From a virus, in the IMG/VR virus record IMGVR_UViG_3300035204_001773, positions 1 to 64,000 of that record: a DNA stretch of 64,000 nucleotides; one strand, given 5' to 3'. Positions 1-16,402 of this stretch are shown here, in pieces (position 1 is the first letter of the stretch; each line of letters begins with the position of its first letter). The notes under the pieces were generated by a model. It made no database searches. It worked only from the letters and a program-made list of their open reading frames with translations, and was not told the origin of the DNA. The translations under genes were made by a program, and so were the position numbers.

Positions 1-117
1 ACCGTCTCCAAAATCTATGTCCCACGTTCCTGCGTATTTGTACCCAAGACAGTCTTCTAAAAATTTGGTTGTTTTTTCTCTGTCTTTTACTCTATATGCT
101 ATATGGTCTAATCTCAT
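1..117 (-). CDS. VOC (glyoxalase-fold) family protein, C-terminus outside window
   Basis: The first 39 codons of a minus-strand gene are visible, beginning MRLDHIAYRVKDREKTTKFL and running off the left edge in frame. The LDHIAYRVKD start followed by a helix and a DCLGYKY strand is typical of the vicinal-oxygen-chelate superfamily (glyoxalase I, extradiol dioxygenase and resistance-protein relatives). The conserved early His, usually a metal ligand, is present. The substrate cannot be told from this fragment. It follows the cytochrome c gene in the same direction. Confidence 0.7.
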   Translation of the reverse strand, partial: MRLDHIAYRVKDREKTTKFLEDCLGYKYAGTWDIDFGDG

Positions 118-133
118 AATATATAATGCTCCT

Positions 134-523
134 TTATTTGTGTTTACTTAAAGATTTTATATAAGCCATTATTGCCTTTCTCTCATCATTTGTTGTCGGT
201 AATGGAGCCATTCCCGGTAGCGTTCCTTTAACAATTTTGGCAAAAGGTTTTTCTATTGACTCTAAGAAATACTCTTCATCTAAAACAACCTCTTTAATGG
301 GTCCGCCTATACCAATGTGGACCTCTCTTTTCTTTCCCCAAAAATCACCCATAAATTTGGGAGACTTTAATGCGTCACCCGCTGGGCATGGCACACTCTC
401 TTCTGTCTGATGGCACAAAGAGCAACTCTTGCTAATAAAAAGCTCTTTGCCTTTTTTAATGTTGTCGTCTGCTTGAGCAAGGCTAACAAACGCTAATAAT
501 AAAATTGGTAATGCTATATTCAT
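134..523 (-). CDS. Periplasmic c-type cytochrome resembling the CoxB cytochrome domain
   Basis: This 129-aa protein has a Sec signal peptide (about residues 1-18, ending SLAQA). It carries one haem-binding CxxCH motif (C34, C37, H38) and a likely axial Met at M105 in the segment LPGMAPLP. The segment with FWGKKREV, LDEEYFLESIEKP and AKIVKG matches the arrangement of the cytochrome c domain fused to subunit II of cytochrome c oxidases. The mature protein should be a small periplasmic or membrane-side electron carrier. It abuts the Lys-rich gene upstream (stop of one at the start of the next). Cytochromes c are rarely reported in phages. Haem attachment would depend on the host Ccm system. Family assignment is firm, physiological partner unknown. 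Confidence 0.85.
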   Translation of the reverse strand: MNIALPILLLAFVSLAQADDNIKKGKELFISKSCSLCHQTEESVPCPAGDALKSPKFMGDFWGKKREVHIGIGGPIKEVVLDEEYFLESIEKPFAKIVKGTLPGMAPLPTTNDERKAIMAYIKSLSKHK

Positions 524-655
524 TTATCCCCCTTTCTTCTTTCTTTTTGTCTTTTTTCTTTCCCGCTTTTTTCTTTGTCTCTCTTTTCTTTTTTCTTCGG
601 GGGTTGACTTGGGGTCCTTTTTTTTCTCTTTTTTTCTTTTTTCTTTATTTGCCAT
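524..655 (-). CDS. Very basic Lys/Arg-rich 43-aa protein
   Basis: A 43-codon frame runs from an ATG at 655 to a TAA that touches the ATG of the cytochrome gene. It is almost entirely Lys, Arg and Glu (starts MANKEKRKKEKKK, ends KRKKKGG). There is no hydrophobic segment. The tight packing between two genes supports translation. It could bind nucleic acid or an acidic membrane surface, but no function is recognised. Confidence 0.55.
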   Translation of the reverse strand: MANKEKRKKEKKKDPKSTPEEKRKERQRKKRERKKTKRKKKGG

Positions 656-657
656 AA

Positions 658-840
658 TTATTCTCCTCCGTAACTTTTGTGTTCGTGCACTTCCCAGTTA
701 TCTAAAATCACCTTGGCTAACCAAAGTTGGAATGGAATAGCTGCAAATCCCAACGTGCATACGATTGCAATCATCCAGAGAGCAATCTTTCCATAATAAT
801 CACTAAGTCTAATATTTAATCTTGATTTATATCTTTTCAT
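658..840 (-). CDS. Small membrane protein, 60 aa
   Basis: The protein has a basic N-terminus (MKRYKSRLN) followed by a hydrophobic stretch of about 28 residues (roughly 19-46) and an acidic, His-containing tail. The predicted topology is a single membrane helix with N-in. It overlaps the upstream lipoprotein gene by 4 nt (ATGA), which supports co-translation. Function is not recognised. Confidence 0.6.
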   Translation of the reverse strand: MKRYKSRLNIRLSDYYGKIALWMIAIVCTLGFAAIPFQLWLAKVILDNWEVHEHKSYGGE

Positions 841-1031
841 TTTTTATTCTCTGTTATCCAGTGGTAAAGTGTGCTGCTACCGTGTCCATACCCGTGGGGT
901 AACGGGCGATAATCTTTTGTTTGTATTTCTGGTGGCTTACCCCAGCTTCTCGGAAAAGCCTTTCCATTGGGGCTACGGTATACTTTGCAGCCCGCTAATG
1001 TTATTAGTAATAATAAAATAATTAATTTCAT
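837..1031 (-). CDS. Small lipoprotein, 64 aa
   Basis: A signal peptide of class II is clear: MKLIILLLLITLAGC with lipobox L-A-G-C, giving a lipidated Cys15. The mature part (about 50 aa) is Pro/Gly/Tyr-rich (RPLPHGYGHGSS) and looks unstructured. It should be anchored in the inner or outer membrane. It shares 4-nt overlaps with genes on both sides. Small phage lipoproteins can serve as outer-membrane spanins or superinfection-exclusion factors, and the sequence does not decide between these. Confidence 0.75.
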   Translation of the reverse strand: MKLIILLLLITLAGCKVYRSPNGKAFPRSWGKPPEIQTKDYRPLPHGYGHGSSTLYHWITENKK

Positions 1032-1344: not shown

Positions 1345-2190
1345 TTATATGATAGGCTCAGCCATCTCGCAAAATCTACATAAAATGTCATCTGAATCAT
1401 TTTTCATTGCATTTTTTATTTTAATAAATTCTTTTCCTTGAAAAAGAGACTCGTGACTATCGGTGATTAGATTTCCCAATGTGTGTTTCAAGCCATAATC
1501 CATACAGCAGAGTTGCACGTCCCCATTGGGTAGAACTATATTGTGATTTAATTTAGGCATTGGATTGCATTGTATTTTTCCCCTTACTCTGTCTACTTTA
1601 TCGACGTTGTCTAAATTACTAGCTCTAGAAATCGGCATAAAATTAGGCAGCTTACCGACCAAGTCTTGGACGTCTTGGTGTGGTTCTCCCATGCCGTCCA
1701 TTGTCATAAAATATGCCGAAGCTATATTCTTAGAGATTAAATATTTTAATATGTTTTTATATTTCTCTGTAACTTTAATAGGCATCAAACCATTCTTATC
1801 TGGTAAATGGATCGTTAGCGGACAGAGCGGAGAAAAACTGATTGAAGATAATAAATCTACATCGTCAAGGCTAGCTCCAACTAGCGTAGTATAACAACAC
1901 ACGGAATAACCTGAGGTATACGCATATTTAATCATCCTAGCGCATTCTTTATTTAAGAACGGCTCTGCGTATCCAGAGAAATCAATTCGATAAGTCTTCG
2001 GTACTTTGTCTAATATTGTTACAAAGTCATCAAACGAAAGAAAATCATTTCTCCACGAAGGAACATGAGCATTCACGTAGCTTTTTGTTAAAAGTTCCTG
2101 AGGACAAATCTTACATCCAACAGCGCACCCCCTTTTCCCGATGTTGGTCGTGAACTCTACTGTGCCCTCAAATTGTTCATTTTGACTCAT
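1345..2190 (-). CDS. Radical SAM protein with SPASM/twitch-like C-terminal cysteines
   Basis: This 281-aa protein has the radical SAM cluster motif Cx3Cx2C near residues 21-28 (RGCAVGCKICP). It also has barrel elements such as RIDFSGYAEP and TMDGMGEPH. The C-terminal part carries further cysteines (QCNP, QLCCMDYG, LCRFCE) in the pattern of a SPASM or twitch domain that binds auxiliary Fe-S clusters. SPASM enzymes modify peptides or carbohydrates. Its stop is next to a small membrane gene, and it overlaps the upstream P-loop kinase gene by 4 nt, so the two are probably co-expressed. The substrate is unknown; a peptide or glycan target is an inference from the family. Confidence 0.8.
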   Translation of the reverse strand: MSQNEQFEGTVEFTTNIGKRGCAVGCKICPQELLTKSYVNAHVPSWRNDFLSFDDFVTILDKVPKTYRIDFSGYAEPFLNKECARMIKYAYTSGYSVCCYTTLVGASLDDVDLLSSISFSPLCPLTIHLPDKNGLMPIKVTEKYKNILKYLISKNIASAYFMTMDGMGEPHQDVQDLVGKLPNFMPISRASNLDNVDKVDRVRGKIQCNPMPKLNHNIVLPNGDVQLCCMDYGLKHTLGNLITDSHESLFQGKEFIKIKNAMKNDSDDILCRFCEMAEPII

Positions 2191-2624
2191 GATCTTAGTG
2201 TCGCAATTTTAGAGCGCAGAAGCTCCCAAGTGGTGTTGATGTCGCTATCTGTATTTAATACAAGCCTTGGATCACCGCACTCGAAGTCTTCAACGTGGTA
2301 TTCTTTTCTAAGTTCTCTTTTCGTGGTTAAAAGAATATCTACAAAATGCCCCTCATTATCCTCCTCGAGCTCTCTCCTAAATTGATTATAAGGGTTAACC
2401 AGCGTCATGACAACTGCCTCGGTGCGAGTCTTGCTTAAATACGTAGCTACAGCATTAGCCGCTCGAATATTCTTTTTTCTCCCACCAAAGCCATAGTCTC
2501 TATTAGTAAAAAATGATCTAAATTCATCTCCATCTATGTGGAAGGGGGTCATTAATGTTGCCACAAGTAACCTGCCTAGTGAGGTCTTGCCTGATCCGGG
2601 TTGACCATATAATACATAGATCAT
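2187..2624 (-). CDS. Adenylylsulfate-kinase-like P-loop kinase, short form
   Basis: This 145-aa protein opens with Walker A GQPGSGKTS. It then shows the CysC-like sequence FHIDGDEFR (compare LLDGDxxR), the helix KKNIRAANAVATYL and NPYNQFRREL (compare SPFxxxR). It is shorter than typical APS kinases (about 200 aa) and lacks the usual C-terminal YKKAR/GIxxPYE region. It may phosphorylate APS or another small substrate. It overlaps the radical SAM gene by 4 nt and sits 1 nt after the ExbD-like gene. The fold is well supported and the substrate is not. Confidence 0.7.
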   Translation of the reverse strand: MIYVLYGQPGSGKTSLGRLLVATLMTPFHIDGDEFRSFFTNRDYGFGGRKKNIRAANAVATYLSKTRTEAVVMTLVNPYNQFRRELEEDNEGHFVDILLTTKRELRKEYHVEDFECGDPRLVLNTDSDINTTWELLRSKIATLRS

Positions 2625-2625
2625 T

Positions 2626-3234
2626 TTATTCTTGTAAGGGGTTTACTAAATTGGCCTGTAATTCATTTATATCTAAAATCATTCCATTTTTATCTGTAGT
2701 GAAACGGAACGCCGTCTTTTGATCCCCCGTGGCCTCAAAGACTCTCTCTTTAACTATAACTTCCTTAAAGGGTTTTATTTTTATTAATTTGATTGTGGCT
2801 TTTGTAGGTCCGTCGTCTCTTTTTGCGTATACGTGAACCGTTACTATATTTTCCCCTTCTACCACGCCCCGAAATGAAACGATCTCCTCATTAAAGGGGA
2901 CGACGACACCTTGGTCCTCTTCTTCTAAACTATTATTCCTACGTTTACCTAAGGCATCGTGGTCCAAGCTTATTAAGCTCCCTTGTCCGCCCTCTCTTCT
3001 GTTGAAAGACACGATGTGTCCCGAGGCCGCTTGAACATAAAGATCTAAATCATCTTCACTTTCACCTTCCCAAGTTAATACTACTTCATAAATTACGTTC
3101 GGTGGGCGAGATTTAATTTTTTGCTCCTCCGTCTTGAGGAGAAAAAGAATCGCCACTAGCATTAACAAGCAACAAAACAGTACGTCAATGAATGGTCTAA
3201 ATGTGAAAAATTTTCTATTCCCTTTATTTATCAT
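2626..3234 (-). CDS. ExbD/TolR-like membrane protein with beta-rich periplasmic domain
   Basis: This 202-aa protein starts with a short basic cytoplasmic end and one membrane helix, FRPFIDVLFCCLLMLVAI. This matches the ExbD/TolR/MotB transmembrane segment including its proton-carrying Asp (D17). The periplasmic part is not the usual TolR/ExbD domain. It contains a DDLDLYVQAASGHIVSFN segment followed by GGQGSLISLDHD, which resembles the DxDLxV beta-sandwich proteins of the DUF2135/YfaP type, and then more beta-rich sequence. It overlaps the ExbB-like gene by 11 nt. The two together should form a proton-driven stator-like complex. The family of the helix is convincing; the domain name is tentative. 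Confidence 0.75.
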   Translation of the reverse strand: MINKGNRKFFTFRPFIDVLFCCLLMLVAILFLLKTEEQKIKSRPPNVIYEVVLTWEGESEDDLDLYVQAASGHIVSFNRREGGQGSLISLDHDALGKRRNNSLEEEDQGVVVPFNEEIVSFRGVVEGENIVTVHVYAKRDDGPTKATIKLIKIKPFKEVIVKERVFEATGDQKTAFRFTTDKNGMILDINELQANLVNPLQE

Positions 3235-3703
3235 GATAATCTAATTTACATTTTAAAATCATCAACTGAATTTGTAAAGGCAAACTGAAAACGATACCAC
3301 AAATCGTAGTATAAAAAGCCGTGTTAAGGCCAACTTTTAATCCAGAGACAATTTCACTTAAGGGCATTGTGCTATCTAAGCTCCCCTTCGTAGCAATGAC
3401 AAGACCGATTATAGTACCCAACAAACCTAGAGAAAAGAAGTGCTCCGCAGCAAACCATCCCAACTCAGCCCTCCTAGAGAGGACGAGGATTGCTTCTTGC
3501 TTTTTTTTCTCATTAATTCTATCCGCCAAATAACATAATTTTCCTATATATGCCGAAACAGAAACATACAGCATCATAATTAATATGGAAATATGTGAAA
3601 GATCATTTTTGATCACGGTTGAAACCATGCCCTTCATTTCTACCAATACCATTGCAGTGATAATTACCGCATTAACTAAAAACCATTTTGTAAAAGTCGT
3701 CAT
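3224..3703 (-). CDS. ExbB/TolQ/MotA-family proton-channel protein
   Basis: This 159-aa protein has three hydrophobic segments (about 5-30, 37-60 and 90-150). The conserved ExbB/TolQ core is visible: GLLGTIIGLVIAT, then SGLKVGLNTAFYTTICGIVFSLP, with the polar Thr residues that line the proton path. It is shorter than host ExbB (about 240 aa) and has almost no cytoplasmic tail, unlike the long-tailed ZorA of Zorya defence systems. The ExbD-like partner follows with an 11-nt overlap. The likely role is energy coupling across the host envelope by proton motive force. The target is unknown. Confidence 0.8.
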   Translation of the reverse strand: MTTFTKWFLVNAVIITAMVLVEMKGMVSTVIKNDLSHISILIMMLYVSVSAYIGKLCYLADRINEKKKQEAILVLSRRAELGWFAAEHFFSLGLLGTIIGLVIATKGSLDSTMPLSEIVSGLKVGLNTAFYTTICGIVFSLPLQIQLMILKCKLDYHDK

Positions 3704-4368: not shown

Positions 4369-5523
4369 TTAAGTATTTTTTCCAAATATCTCATTCGATT
4401 GTTGAGTTGTCCTAACAAAGGTCGCGCACTTCGGCATGTCCTTCAAATTTTTAGCTCCAATATAGGTGCAAGTTGAACGAATACCGCCGAGAATATTTTC
4501 AATTGTGTTCTTTATTAAGCCCCTGTGTTTAATTCTTACTGTCTTACCCTCTGACGAACGATAATTGGCAACGCCGCCATGATACTTATTCATGGCCGTG
4601 TCAGAGCTCATTCCGTAAAATGTTTTATACTTCTCTCCGTCTACTTCTTCCTCTTGTCCTTCTGATTCAGTATGACCTGCCAACATCCCGCCCAGCATAA
4701 CAAAATCAGCACCAGCACAAAAGGCCTTGGCCACATCGCCAGCACATACGCACCCACCGTCAGCCATAATATGCCCACCAATCCCATGAGCAGCATCCGC
4801 GCATTCAATGACTGCGCTGAGTTGAGGGTAACCGACACCAGTTTGAATACGAGTAGTACAGACAGACCCGCCGCCAATACCCACTTTAACAATATCTGCT
4901 CCACTTAGTAATATCTCCTCCGTCATTTCGCCAGTGACGACATTACCCGCAATGATAATAAGCGCGGGGTGTTCGTCTCTGACTCGTTTAATAAAATCGC
5001 AAAACCTTGATGTGTATCCGTTTGCTGCATCTATACATACGAATTGTGTATGATAAAAATTCCAAGTAAGATCACGGAGGTAATCTACATCATCGTATTC
5101 TTTTTCATTATATTTGATACCAATAGATGGAGATAGATGTTCATAAATTCTATTATGTGCGCACCTTGAGTTTGGATCATGCTTCCAAACAGTACCCTTC
5201 CTTTGCTCTGGGCTTTTGTAGACTCCATAGCCGTTTAATTTATGTAGCCATTTTTTTAAATCGTGATGCTTGTTAATACAGGTCAACATATGATAGTTGG
5301 CGAGAGCCTTAGCAGTTTCAAAAGTCCCAACAGTGTCCATATTTGAAGCTACAATTGGAACGCCTGTCCATCCGTAGGCCTCGGGGTCGGAGCCTTCGCC
5401 ACCAGCGTTCTTGAATTTAAAAGTACGCATCAAGTCAACATCCCTGCGGGAGGTAAGCTCAGAACGCTTGGGACGCAGAAGAACATCCTTATAGTCCAGC
5501 TTTATATCGGATTCGATTCGCAC
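4369..5523 (-). CDS. guaC: GMP reductase
   Basis: This 384-aa protein reduces GMP to IMP with NADPH. Family signatures are all present: LDYKDVLLRPKRS near the N-terminus, PIVASNMDTVGT, INKHHDL, the (beta/alpha)8 core AGNVVTGEM, the catalytic loop GIGGGSVCTTR, MADGGC, MLGGMLAGH and FYGMSSDTAM. The protein lacks the CBS domains of IMP dehydrogenase. The start codon is GTG. The N-terminal match to other GMP reductases fixes it, and a near-consensus promoter ends 7 nt before it, so the mRNA appears leaderless. It probably recycles host guanylate for phage DNA synthesis. Confidence 0.95.
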   Translation of the reverse strand: MRIESDIKLDYKDVLLRPKRSELTSRRDVDLMRTFKFKNAGGEGSDPEAYGWTGVPIVASNMDTVGTFETAKALANYHMLTCINKHHDLKKWLHKLNGYGVYKSPEQRKGTVWKHDPNSRCAHNRIYEHLSPSIGIKYNEKEYDDVDYLRDLTWNFYHTQFVCIDAANGYTSRFCDFIKRVRDEHPALIIIAGNVVTGEMTEEILLSGADIVKVGIGGGSVCTTRIQTGVGYPQLSAVIECADAAHGIGGHIMADGGCVCAGDVAKAFCAGADFVMLGGMLAGHTESEGQEEEVDGEKYKTFYGMSSDTAMNKYHGGVANYRSSEGKTVRIKHRGLIKNTIENILGGIRSTCTYIGAKNLKDMPKCATFVRTTQQSNEIFGKNT

Positions 5524-10741: not shown

Positions 10742-11498
10742 AGCTTAGTTGGCTTCTAAGAAATGAACCCTTATCATGCTCAATATACATTCCCCAACGC
10801 GTGAATGGTATAACATGCTGTGACGTGCTATGGCCATTAGAATTAACATGATTCGCCGCAGAAACCCCCTCTGCAAAATCCTGAACTAAATGCGGCCACC
10901 TTTCTCTAGACTTAGCTAAGATAAAGCTATCGTCCCATCTGGGTAATCTTCTAAAATTTTGATTAGTATAAATTGACATAACAAAATTATAAAATTCTAT
11001 AGCAAACCCAGAAAGACCGTCAACCACAACCACTCCAGCCTCCACGGAATCTCTATCACCCTGAAATAAACCCACGGGTTTTTCTAAAATATCACCCACG
11101 AAACTCTCAGGAATCGGCTTTATAATTCGTGCGTCTGCATCCAAAAAAACGTTAACACCTTTATACCTCTTTCTTACGACGGCGTCATACTGCATAAGAA
11201 CTTTATGAAACCAACCAAACCACCGCTCATTCCACATGCCTAAGTCTTTTGCTAACCCGCCTTGAGAAACATCAATGACATCTTTATTGTTGTTGAAAAC
11301 TTCAGAAAATTCGGGAAGATTTCTAATTTTTACAAGTTGCAAATTTAAATTTCTAGATGATATATCATCAATATTTTCTTCAGAAACGTCTTCGTAAATC
11401 CAAACTTCGGCTTCTGGCACATTCTCCTCTACGCTGTCTAACAAGCTTTTGCCTGATAAATTATAAATCTTGTCATTGAATGTCGATAATATCCTCAT
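10716..11498 (-). CDS. GT-A-type glycosyltransferase-like protein
   Basis: The start is placed at the ATG at 11498 (MRILSTFNDKIY), preceded by an AAAGGA ribosome-binding site, giving 260 aa. A DxD motif occurs in VFLDADARIIKPIP, the metal and nucleotide-sugar site of GT-A (GT8-like) enzymes. It is followed by VGLFQGDRDSVEAGVVVV and RWDDSFIL. The donor sugar is unknown. It is one gene of a run with three SAM methyltransferases, suggesting synthesis of a methylated glycan. Confidence 0.6.
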   Translation of the reverse strand: MRILSTFNDKIYNLSGKSLLDSVEENVPEAEVWIYEDVSEENIDDISSRNLNLQLVKIRNLPEFSEVFNNNKDVIDVSQGGLAKDLGMWNERWFGWFHKVLMQYDAVVRKRYKGVNVFLDADARIIKPIPESFVGDILEKPVGLFQGDRDSVEAGVVVVDGLSGFAIEFYNFVMSIYTNQNFRRLPRWDDSFILAKSRERWPHLVQDFAEGVSAANHVNSNGHSTSQHVIPFTRWGMYIEHDKGSFLRSQLSSSSLDVPK

Positions 11499-11523
11499 TT
11501 CTATTTTTCCTTTCCATTTATTC

Positions 11524-12204
11524 CTATTCCCAGTTAATGTCTCGTTCGCCAAACTCAAACTTCTGCTTTATTCCTAACCCCTTGGGAAAGAAGTTTCGTA
11601 GCATTTCTATGTCTCCCCTATCCATTGTTAAGCCCTCTGGTAAAACAGCTCTTCTTTTTTTTACTATAACGGTTTGATTGTTGCCATAAGCCTTGTAACT
11701 TGCATCACCGCAATCAAAGCCTGCAAGAATCAAGTGGTAAAAAAGAGTTGCTGGAGTAAATTGATTTACATGACCGCCGACCAACTTGGTCCTCACCGGG
11801 GGTACTGATATTAACAAAATTCCATCATTCTTTAATAAGCTGAAAATTTTCTTCAAAAACTTATTTACATTTAGTGAGTGCTCTAATATGTGGCTACAAA
11901 ATAGGCAGTCGTATTTCTTTTCAAAATCTATTTCTAAAAAATCCCCCAAGAAGCTAATTTCATCCTTTCTCTGCTTGGCATAAAAACTAGTACCGAAATC
12001 GACCGTGTCAACAATTTTACCCGCTTCTCTTAAAACGCTTGCATGCTCTCCCGCTCCCGAACCGACATCTAAAACGGTTTTAAAAGAGTAATCTTTAAGT
12101 AGCTTAGCTACCCCCTTGCTTGATGTAGTCAAAGATCCTATCTTTCCCGTTAAGATAAGATCTCGCCTTGCGCGTAATAGAAAAGAGTCTTCCACTAGTG
12201 TCAT
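11524..12204 (-). CDS. Class I SAM-dependent methyltransferase
   Basis: The 226-aa protein has SAM motif I VLDVGSGAGEHASVL, an acidic beta-2 end (VDTVDFG), motif IV-like YDCLFCSHILEH and motif LLKNDGILLISVP. The pattern fits Methyltransf_11/23-type enzymes, which act on small molecules or sugars. It lies just upstream of the GT-A-like gene. Confidence 0.8.
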   Translation of the reverse strand: MTLVEDSFLLRARRDLILTGKIGSLTTSSKGVAKLLKDYSFKTVLDVGSGAGEHASVLREAGKIVDTVDFGTSFYAKQRKDEISFLGDFLEIDFEKKYDCLFCSHILEHSLNVNKFLKKIFSLLKNDGILLISVPPVRTKLVGGHVNQFTPATLFYHLILAGFDCGDASYKAYGNNQTVIVKKRRAVLPEGLTMDRGDIEMLRNFFPKGLGIKQKFEFGERDINWE

Positions 12205-12222
12205 TTCTTTACATATTATACT

Positions 12223-13011
12223 TTAAACCCACCAGAGTTCATAATATTTCTCAACATTTTGATGCCAAGCATTTACGTCCATATGATTCTCGTTGGGAAC
12301 CCAATTTGGGAAAATATTTTCAAACACCATTCCGTGGCAGTCATCAAAACCTTTTATAAAATCATTACTCCCCGCAAAAATAGTATGAGGCTGGTCATCA
12401 AGCATGGTTGATGCTTCTCGAAGCTCTTGAGAAAAATCCTCGCAATATACAAATCCATATCTAGAGAACGCATCTATCCAATATTCTTTAGATTTACAAT
12501 TTACGTGATGGTGGCCGGTGTGTCCGGGAGGAGCGGCGGTACATATAGCATACCTAGAAGTTTGAAACGCATGCATGTAGTTCGGCATATATTTTTCCTC
12601 TACGTGCTCTAAAAATTCAACACTGAAAGACAGATCACTGTGAATCCCTTCTATAAGAGGACACGGACCCATGGTAAAATCATGACACACGCAATTTAGG
12701 GGCTCACCCACATCTCTCATGCCCGCCTCTTCCCAAATCGCGGGTAATATGGGATCACCATCTATACCTCTGGCCGCAAGCCCCTTTTGCGTTGCGTAGC
12801 TAATCATAGTACCAAGACCACATCCCACCTCCAAAAAGGTCTTTACGTTAAATTTCTTGATCGCCCAATCAAGCGCACCAAAGTCTGTGTGACAAACCAT
12901 CTGGTGCCCACCTAGATGAGGCGGTGTCTCTATAATCTTTGCTTTATCTTGCGTCATATATATATTTGGACATAGCTGAGATGCAAGAGCTTTAATTTCG
13001 TCCTTTGTCAT
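12223..13011 (-). CDS. Class I SAM-dependent methyltransferase
   Basis: The 262-aa protein has motif I TFLEVGCGLGTMISYA, the acidic residue in ARGIDGDP and a FSVEFLEHVEEKY segment. A His-rich loop (GHTGHHHVNCK) then precedes the C-terminal substrate region. The acceptor is unknown. It follows tRNA-Leu and precedes another methyltransferase, separated by 18 nt. Confidence 0.75.
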   Translation of the reverse strand: MTKDEIKALASQLCPNIYMTQDKAKIIETPPHLGGHQMVCHTDFGALDWAIKKFNVKTFLEVGCGLGTMISYATQKGLAARGIDGDPILPAIWEEAGMRDVGEPLNCVCHDFTMGPCPLIEGIHSDLSFSVEFLEHVEEKYMPNYMHAFQTSRYAICTAAPPGHTGHHHVNCKSKEYWIDAFSRYGFVYCEDFSQELREASTMLDDQPHTIFAGSNDFIKGFDDCHGMVFENIFPNWVPNENHMDVNAWHQNVEKYYELWWV

Positions 13012-16001: not shown

Positions 16002-16402
16002 TGGTGGAAGCGGCGGGAGTCGAACCCGCGTCTTTAAAGCCATCGGCTTAAATATACTACAAGCTTAGTCAGTGTTAATTTTCGTGCTTCATCACTGACA
16101 ACTACACACGAGGTTGGAGGCACTTTATTTATCCTAGACTCCTCACCCTTCCTAGTTTTTTGCTCGCTGTCGACGCCCTATCTCCTTAACGAGCATCCAG
16201 AGTAGGACGGGGCAGAACTAAGCTGCCAGCGCGGCTTCTTGGAAACCGAAACGAGCGAGAATCTCGTCCGCTTCTGCTACCGAAGGAGCCATGTCAACAT
16301 TATCGTTGGCATATATGTTTTTGACAGTTTTTTTAAGAGGCCAACTATCATCCTCTGCTTGCAATTTAGCGTAAGGTTCTAAATCGAATCCAGTACGCTC
16401 CC
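16002..16402 (-). ncRNA. ssrA: tmRNA (one-piece) with 30-codon tag
   Basis: This is a 401-nt transfer-messenger RNA. The ends pair as a tRNA-Ala-like acceptor (GGGAGCG/CGCTTCC, then A and encoded CCA). The T arm is GCGGG-TTCGACT-CCCGC, and the hallmark TGACTAAGCTTGTAGTA and GTTGGCCTCTTAAAAAAAC are present. The tag frame runs from a GCC resume codon at 16310 to TAG ending at 16218. It begins ANDNVDMA and ends QEAALAA, 30 codons in all, much longer than the 10-codon tag of E. coli. It would rescue stalled ribosomes and mark products for proteolysis. Confidence 0.95.

Follow-up and report, generated by a model that had tools for sequence, protein, structure and literature searches.

Phage control of electron flow is documented best for photosynthesis. 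Cyanophages encode plastocyanin, PTOX and ferredoxin, with the proposed function of sustaining or redirecting electron flow during infection (PMC10452541). Respiratory genes are also on record. A viral cbb3 subunit I has been reported from metagenomes (PMC3474794), and viral ccoP and cydAB genes have been listed (PMC12713726). A study of the ETSP oxygen-minimum zone described T4-like phages with auxiliary metabolic genes (AMGs) adjoining gp23; according to its authors, the phages there that carry denitrification genes showed no electron carriers of the cytochrome kind (PMC8115048). In bacteria, Alternative Complex III (ACIII) oxidises quinol, and the haems of ActA and ActE pass electrons to soluble cytochrome c, to HiPIP, or directly to a caa3 or aa3 oxidase (PMC5928083). 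ActE of R. marinus gives electrons to caa3, and ACIII also reduces soluble cytochrome c (PMC5928083; PMC8552683). The F. johnsoniae ActE is not needed for electron transfer to aa3 and might supply different acceptors (PMC8552683). Our literature search, with thin coverage of subscription journals, found no publication describing an ACIII-type cytochrome from a phage. A search for planctomycete-phage literature returned nothing.

The window, the whole 64,000-nucleotide stretch that we analysed, forms the left end of a virus record of 109,211 bp. Lying 134 nucleotides from the contig end, a gene on the minus strand (134..523) encodes a secreted monohaem cytochrome c of 129 amino acids, as judged from the ORF call, Pfam, conservation and dN/dS. 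The parts of this gene and the neighbouring genes of its block that are given below lie on the same strand. A GGGGG run (528..532), 4 nucleotides before the ATG, is a plausible ribosome-binding site. The signal peptide, MNIALPILLLAFVSLAQA, spans residues 1-18 (470..523). Judged by eye, cleavage would fall between MNIALPILLLAFVSLAQA and DD, at an A-x-A site, and there is no lipobox cysteine. Among relatives, this leader is variable yet hydrophobic. The haem-binding motif, CSLCH, occupies residues 34-38 (410..424), and Met105 (209..211) is the presumed sixth haem ligand. Between them, sequence comparison identified VHIGIGGP, residues 68-75 (299..322), as a signature shared with planctomycete ACIII cytochromes. 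The ORF scored 28.2 bits against Pfam Cytochrom_C, where the cut-off is 21.3. In 56 aligned cytochromes, C34, C37, H38, P55, D82, Y85, E88, S89, I90, G100 and M105 are invariant. Note that CxxCH and D82-I90 belonged to the patterns that fetched the cellular cytochromes; P55, G100 and M105 did not. Hence, the signal peptide, CxxCH and methionine ligand named in the first-pass annotation are borne out by the sequence, the Pfam score and this invariance.

A CxxCH motif with a distal methionine, in a predicted cytochrome c fold, places the product among class I c-type cytochromes. Pfam found no COX2 match in the ORF, which has its own signal peptide; the protein is not fused behind a CuA/COX2 domain. 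No other secreted CxxCH ORF occurs in the 109,211-bp record, where the remaining CxxCH motif belongs to a glycosyltransferase-like ORF. Similarly, the record contains no ActA and no full-length ActE. Since no other secreted CxxCH protein is present, we regard the cytochrome as a detached relative, rather than the gene for an ACIII subunit. The product is thus a predicted exported, haem-binding cytochrome without a membrane anchor. For the mature part, pairwise dN/dS was 0.03-0.08, these ratios being rough for distant pairs, where dS is saturated. Such values indicate a gene under selection to remain functional.

A whole-genome search, with a profile built from the phage sequences alone, moved the closest-relative call from CoxB to act cytochromes. 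In one Planctomycetota genome (G1231), the profile had two matches, with E values of 2e-44 and 2e-39; the best CoxB domains gave about 1e-12 to 1e-14. Both matches adjoin each other in an act operon (L133). The order is ActB (L133:3073-6219), ActC/NrfD (L133:6229-7713), ActD (L133:7710-8360; PF11821, 1.9e-60), ActE (L133:8367-9533), a free-standing secreted cytochrome (L133:9588-10070), an ActF-like protein (L133:10113-11387), an SCO-like protein, CoxB and CoxA. The labels ActB, ActE and ActF-like follow from the order of the genes and from their domains. One match is the C-terminal domain of ActE. The other is the free-standing cytochrome, between actE and actF, which matches the phage protein at 58% identity over 106 residues, without gaps. 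The CoxB of this locus carries a cytochrome domain of its own. A second planctomycete relative (G1758) has this domain both at the C-terminus of ActE and as a free-standing protein of its own (L143/L144), and a third (G1760) has an ActE with three tandem C-terminal cytochrome domains (L145, C1:4659388-4660653). The VHxGIxGP signature was found in the phage, G1231 and G1758 proteins only.

In a maximum-likelihood tree, resting on 96 alignment columns, the phage proteins group with the G1231 act cytochromes (100/99). Phage and act cytochromes together are separated from CoxB domains (100/98). A grouping with unrelated short CxxCH proteins, which the first-pass annotation had named as a danger to its reading, was absent. 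By signature and tree grouping, the phage protein is an ACIII cytochrome of the planctomycete ActE C-terminal type. Placing the phage clade just outside the act cytochromes was not rejected by the AU test (p 0.087), and it is therefore likely, rather than proven, that the gene passed from an act operon into phages. The ActE C-terminal domain of another genome in the same phylum (G1181) falls outside the group; hence, the phage proteins represent one subtype among ACIII cytochromes. Profile searches found nothing close in Gammaproteobacteria (369 genomes), Alphaproteobacteria (337), Verrucomicrobiota (240) or the phylum of a Bdellovibrionales genome (291). Among the 278 and 201 genomes around G1231, the only close relatives were G1231, G1758 and G1760. 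Within the groups searched, the donor claim is anchored on a few planctomycete genomes, while ACIII also occurs in other phyla, such as SAR324 and Bacteroidota. The link between Planctomycetota and these phages comes from the cytochrome gene alone.

In the reading that we hold reasonably probable, the gene product is a class I cytochrome c, soluble in the periplasm, that carries electrons from host ACIII to a caa3 or aa3 oxidase. The phage lineage would have gained the gene from a bacterium whose ACIII cytochromes were like those of some Planctomycetota. Once exported, the phage protein would receive haem from the host Ccm system. It would then take electrons from host ACIII, the quinol:cytochrome c oxidoreductase, and deliver them to an oxidase of the caa3/aa3 type, in place of the host's own carrier or alongside it. 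Respiration and proton motive force could so be sustained through the shutdown of host gene expression. Hence, the phage may maintain or redirect host respiration in infection, and its cytochrome probably acts in respiratory electron flow, as the first-pass annotation proposed. This role, like the host, is a prediction from sequence. A phage-specific third cysteine, C46, is invariant in 5/5 complete phage proteins, and we count it against the carrier model. Note that phage copies range in pI from 5.5 to 8.8, and so differ in surface charge. Given this variation, sequence alone does not reveal the electron partners.

Electrons might instead be diverted from ACIII to nitrite or NO reductase, a peroxidase or another host enzyme, rather than to the oxidase. 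We consider this unlikely. F. johnsoniae ActE has been proposed to route electrons outside the ACIII-aa3 supercomplex (PMC8552683), and for cyanophage plastocyanin a switch to a different acceptor has been proposed (PMC10452541). However, no acceptor gene was recognised beside the cytochrome in our contigs, and coxBA adjoins the act operon in the relative's genome, which favours an oxidase. Less probable again is a decoy or inhibitor, which would slow respiration by competing with the host's carrier or with the ActE domain, either for takeover or against co-infecting phages. The cytochrome does look like a detached copy of a domain also fused to ActE, and its recent spread among co-occurring phages, described below, would fit competition as well. 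Yet the haem ligands and core residues are all retained under strong constraint, and bacteria themselves keep the same free-standing form.

The protein could also be a CoxB cytochrome domain captured from host oxidase subunit II. An AlphaFold2 model, predicted with confidence (pLDDT 84.6), had a single PDB match below 1e-3 in Foldseek: 1w2l, the CoxB cytochrome domain of the R. marinus caa3 oxidase. VIA-align gave Z 14.0 against 1w2l (95 residues, rmsd 1.7), the next-best Z being 9.7. Note that the AlphaFold2 input alignment included CoxB domains, so this match is not fully independent. Moreover, the matches held no structure of an act C-terminal domain, so they do not decide between CoxB and act. 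After the act cytochromes, the next-best cellular matches are CoxB domains. The phage-only profile ranked a CoxB-type cytochrome first in 12 genomes, each with 4-20 c-type candidates, and in most of these it was the profile's only match. The patterns used to scan genome contigs were seeded with 1w2l and a generic family-consensus row, and were biased to CoxB-like sequences. Against capture from CoxB, act cytochromes are much closer, at 58% identity versus roughly 40-48% for CoxB alignments that are shorter and gapped. Furthermore, VHxGIxGP, common to phage and act cytochromes, is missing from all CoxB domains examined, and the tree splits the CoxB domains off. We therefore regard capture from CoxB as very improbable. 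The first-pass description of a free-standing phage cytochrome c from the CoxB-type domain group holds, and "CoxB-like" is apt for the domain superfamily, with 1w2l the top structure. It does not extend to the closest relatives; the comparison with CoxB domains that it called for puts these among ACIII cytochromes of Planctomycetota. Free-standing cytochromes of Bipolaricaulota and Fimbriimonadales were considered as a donor type and rejected, since they group with CoxB domains in the tree.

Relatives of the phage cytochrome occur in six further IMG/VR contigs, from three metagenomes. Four (L002, L003, L005 and L006) are 88-98% identical to the window protein, L009 is 77% identical and L004 71%. 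Further viral scans recovered the same six contigs and nothing more. INPHARED phages (searched by tblastn) and PHROGs held no relative, and BFVD viral structures no match. In L004, the gene adjoins the T4-type major capsid gene, gp23, beyond which lie genes of prohead and portal type. In L009, it lies in the contig interior, flanked by RecA-like, QueC and IMPDH-like genes on one side and a DnaB-like helicase on the other. In L003, it is internal to a contig of 71.8 kb and is followed by the VOC-type gene that also lies downstream of it in the window. The window's own record encodes DNA polymerase, a UvsX-like protein, a DnaB-like helicase, an exonuclease and ribonucleotide reductase. We conclude that the cytochrome gene is phage DNA; the chimeric join to host DNA, which the first-pass annotation had flagged for the left edge, is ruled out by relatives in contig interiors and beside gp23. 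Found in phage genomes, among phage genes and under purifying selection, it has the marks of an AMG.

The cytochrome gene has a different recent history from its neighbours. Between the window, L002 and L003, cytochrome DNA is 93-95% identical, with dS of 0.17-0.29. By contrast, their exbB-like, exbD-like, kinase, lipoprotein and IMPDH-like genes reach identities of 60-78%, and dS there exceeds 1 or is saturated. Given this far lower dS, recent recombination among co-occurring phages is the simplest reading. Such exchange would also explain why four contigs end in or beside the cytochrome gene, since assemblers break at shared, near-identical sequence. Hence, although the gene lies so close to a contig end here, we dismiss an edge artefact or host contamination: near-identical copies account for the contig ends, and the internal and gp23-linked copies come from three metagenomes. 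In L003, a membrane-protein gene (L003:11000-11578) has a first 36 nucleotides nearly identical to the starts of cytochrome genes. This looks like a recombination scar, as if the start of the signal peptide had been reused.

Several further observations concern these records. The right end of the window's record (108774-109211) runs into a collagen-like repeat; therefore, both record ends look like assembly breaks. Outside the window, among tail-region genes, a 24-kb ORF (record positions 69167-93400) encodes 8077 amino acids, probably an unusually long tape-measure protein. The window carries four tRNAs and a tmRNA (16002-16402; Rfam RF00023, 146 bits), whose predicted tag is odd and long. 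In L009, QueC (7-cyano-7-deazaguanine synthase; L009:1950-2651) is encoded shortly upstream of the cytochrome, which suggests deazaguanine DNA modification. The T4 late-promoter motif TATAAATA was rejected as a general feature; its single copy, before the L004 gene, is too near the ATG.

Directly downstream of the cytochrome is the 5' part of a VOC/glyoxalase-like gene (1..117), cut by the contig end and complete in L003 (10407-11003). The rest of the block comprises a conserved small lipoprotein-like gene, possibly spanin-like (837..1031), a P-loop kinase-like gene (2187..2624), an ExbD-like stator partner (2626..3234) and a MotA/TolQ/ExbB-like (ZorA-like) channel subunit (3224..3703), the last having local resemblance to ZorA. 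An IMPDH/GMP reductase-like gene (4369..5523) follows in the list; in L004 and L009, its counterparts lie immediately upstream of the cytochrome. The ExbB-like/ExbD-like pair is a few kb from the cytochrome in five contigs, and was not seen in the short stretches of L004 and L009. Thus, the block shared with a proton-driven pair, reported from the first reading, recurs; the proposed link between the two is one of neighbourhood only. In the window, the two genes (2626-3703) make a proton-channel/stator-like pair. Relatives of its ExbD-like member are also encoded by T4-like phages of Rhizobium, RHph_N34 among them, where they are annotated as hypothetical. The phage collection holding those phages contained no cytochrome relative.

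Two of the related phages encode a proline dehydrogenase (PF01619) about 3 kb from the cytochrome (L002:6316-7170 and L006:7024-7875). The best NCBIfam model is ProDh_Thermus, below its cut-off. Relatives of this enzyme were found in Microcystis phage MaAM05 and in records labelled Staphylococcus phage. Aldehyde dehydrogenase genes are present in L005 (5119-6732), preceded by a VOC-type gene, and in the L003 record (11466-12875). Several different models match the L005 enzyme, so its substrate is not fixed by the model. Neither dehydrogenase is in the window's 109-kb record. The proline dehydrogenase could feed the quinone pool and, if quinone-reducing, would fit a programme of feeding and sustaining respiration. 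Tentatively, these T4-like phages, with hosts that are probably Planctomycetota-like, might trade a soluble ACIII-type cytochrome c and so supply the mobile carrier of a non-photosynthetic respiratory chain. Together with a probable quinone-reducing proline dehydrogenase and the ExbB/ExbD-like pair, the block of some members might then run from electron input to use of the proton motive force. This wider proposal is possible, and we hold it with less confidence than the carrier role itself.

Compared with planctomycete act cytochromes (G1231 and G1758), the phage protein has the same domain length, CxxCH, VHxGIxGP, YF/LxES and methionine, and the same free-standing secreted form, at 48-58% identity. 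It differs in having no surrounding act genes, a shorter leader, the extra invariant Cys46 and a setting in T4-like phage genomes. With CoxB (1w2l), it shares fold and motif order. Unlike CoxB, it has no CuA/COX2 domain, contains the additional VHxGIxGP stretch, shows lower identity and falls outside the CoxB part of the tree. Viral cbb3, ccoP and cydAB are likewise respiratory genes in viral sequence, and the accessible text of those sources describes no ACIII-type cytochrome (PMC3474794, PMC12713726). A conserved, predicted-exported and recently exchanged ACIII-related cytochrome opens to direct testing the question of whether heterotroph respiration is run by infecting phages, and points the way to phages of bacteria with ACIII. 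Finally, cyanophage plastocyanin, PTOX and ferredoxin are, like this cytochrome, phage-encoded electron-transport proteins. They work in photosynthetic chains, plastocyanin being a copper protein, whereas the protein described here is a haem protein with respiratory ACIII kin. By analogy, its role would be comparable to that of cyanophage plastocyanin, as a heterotroph counterpart.
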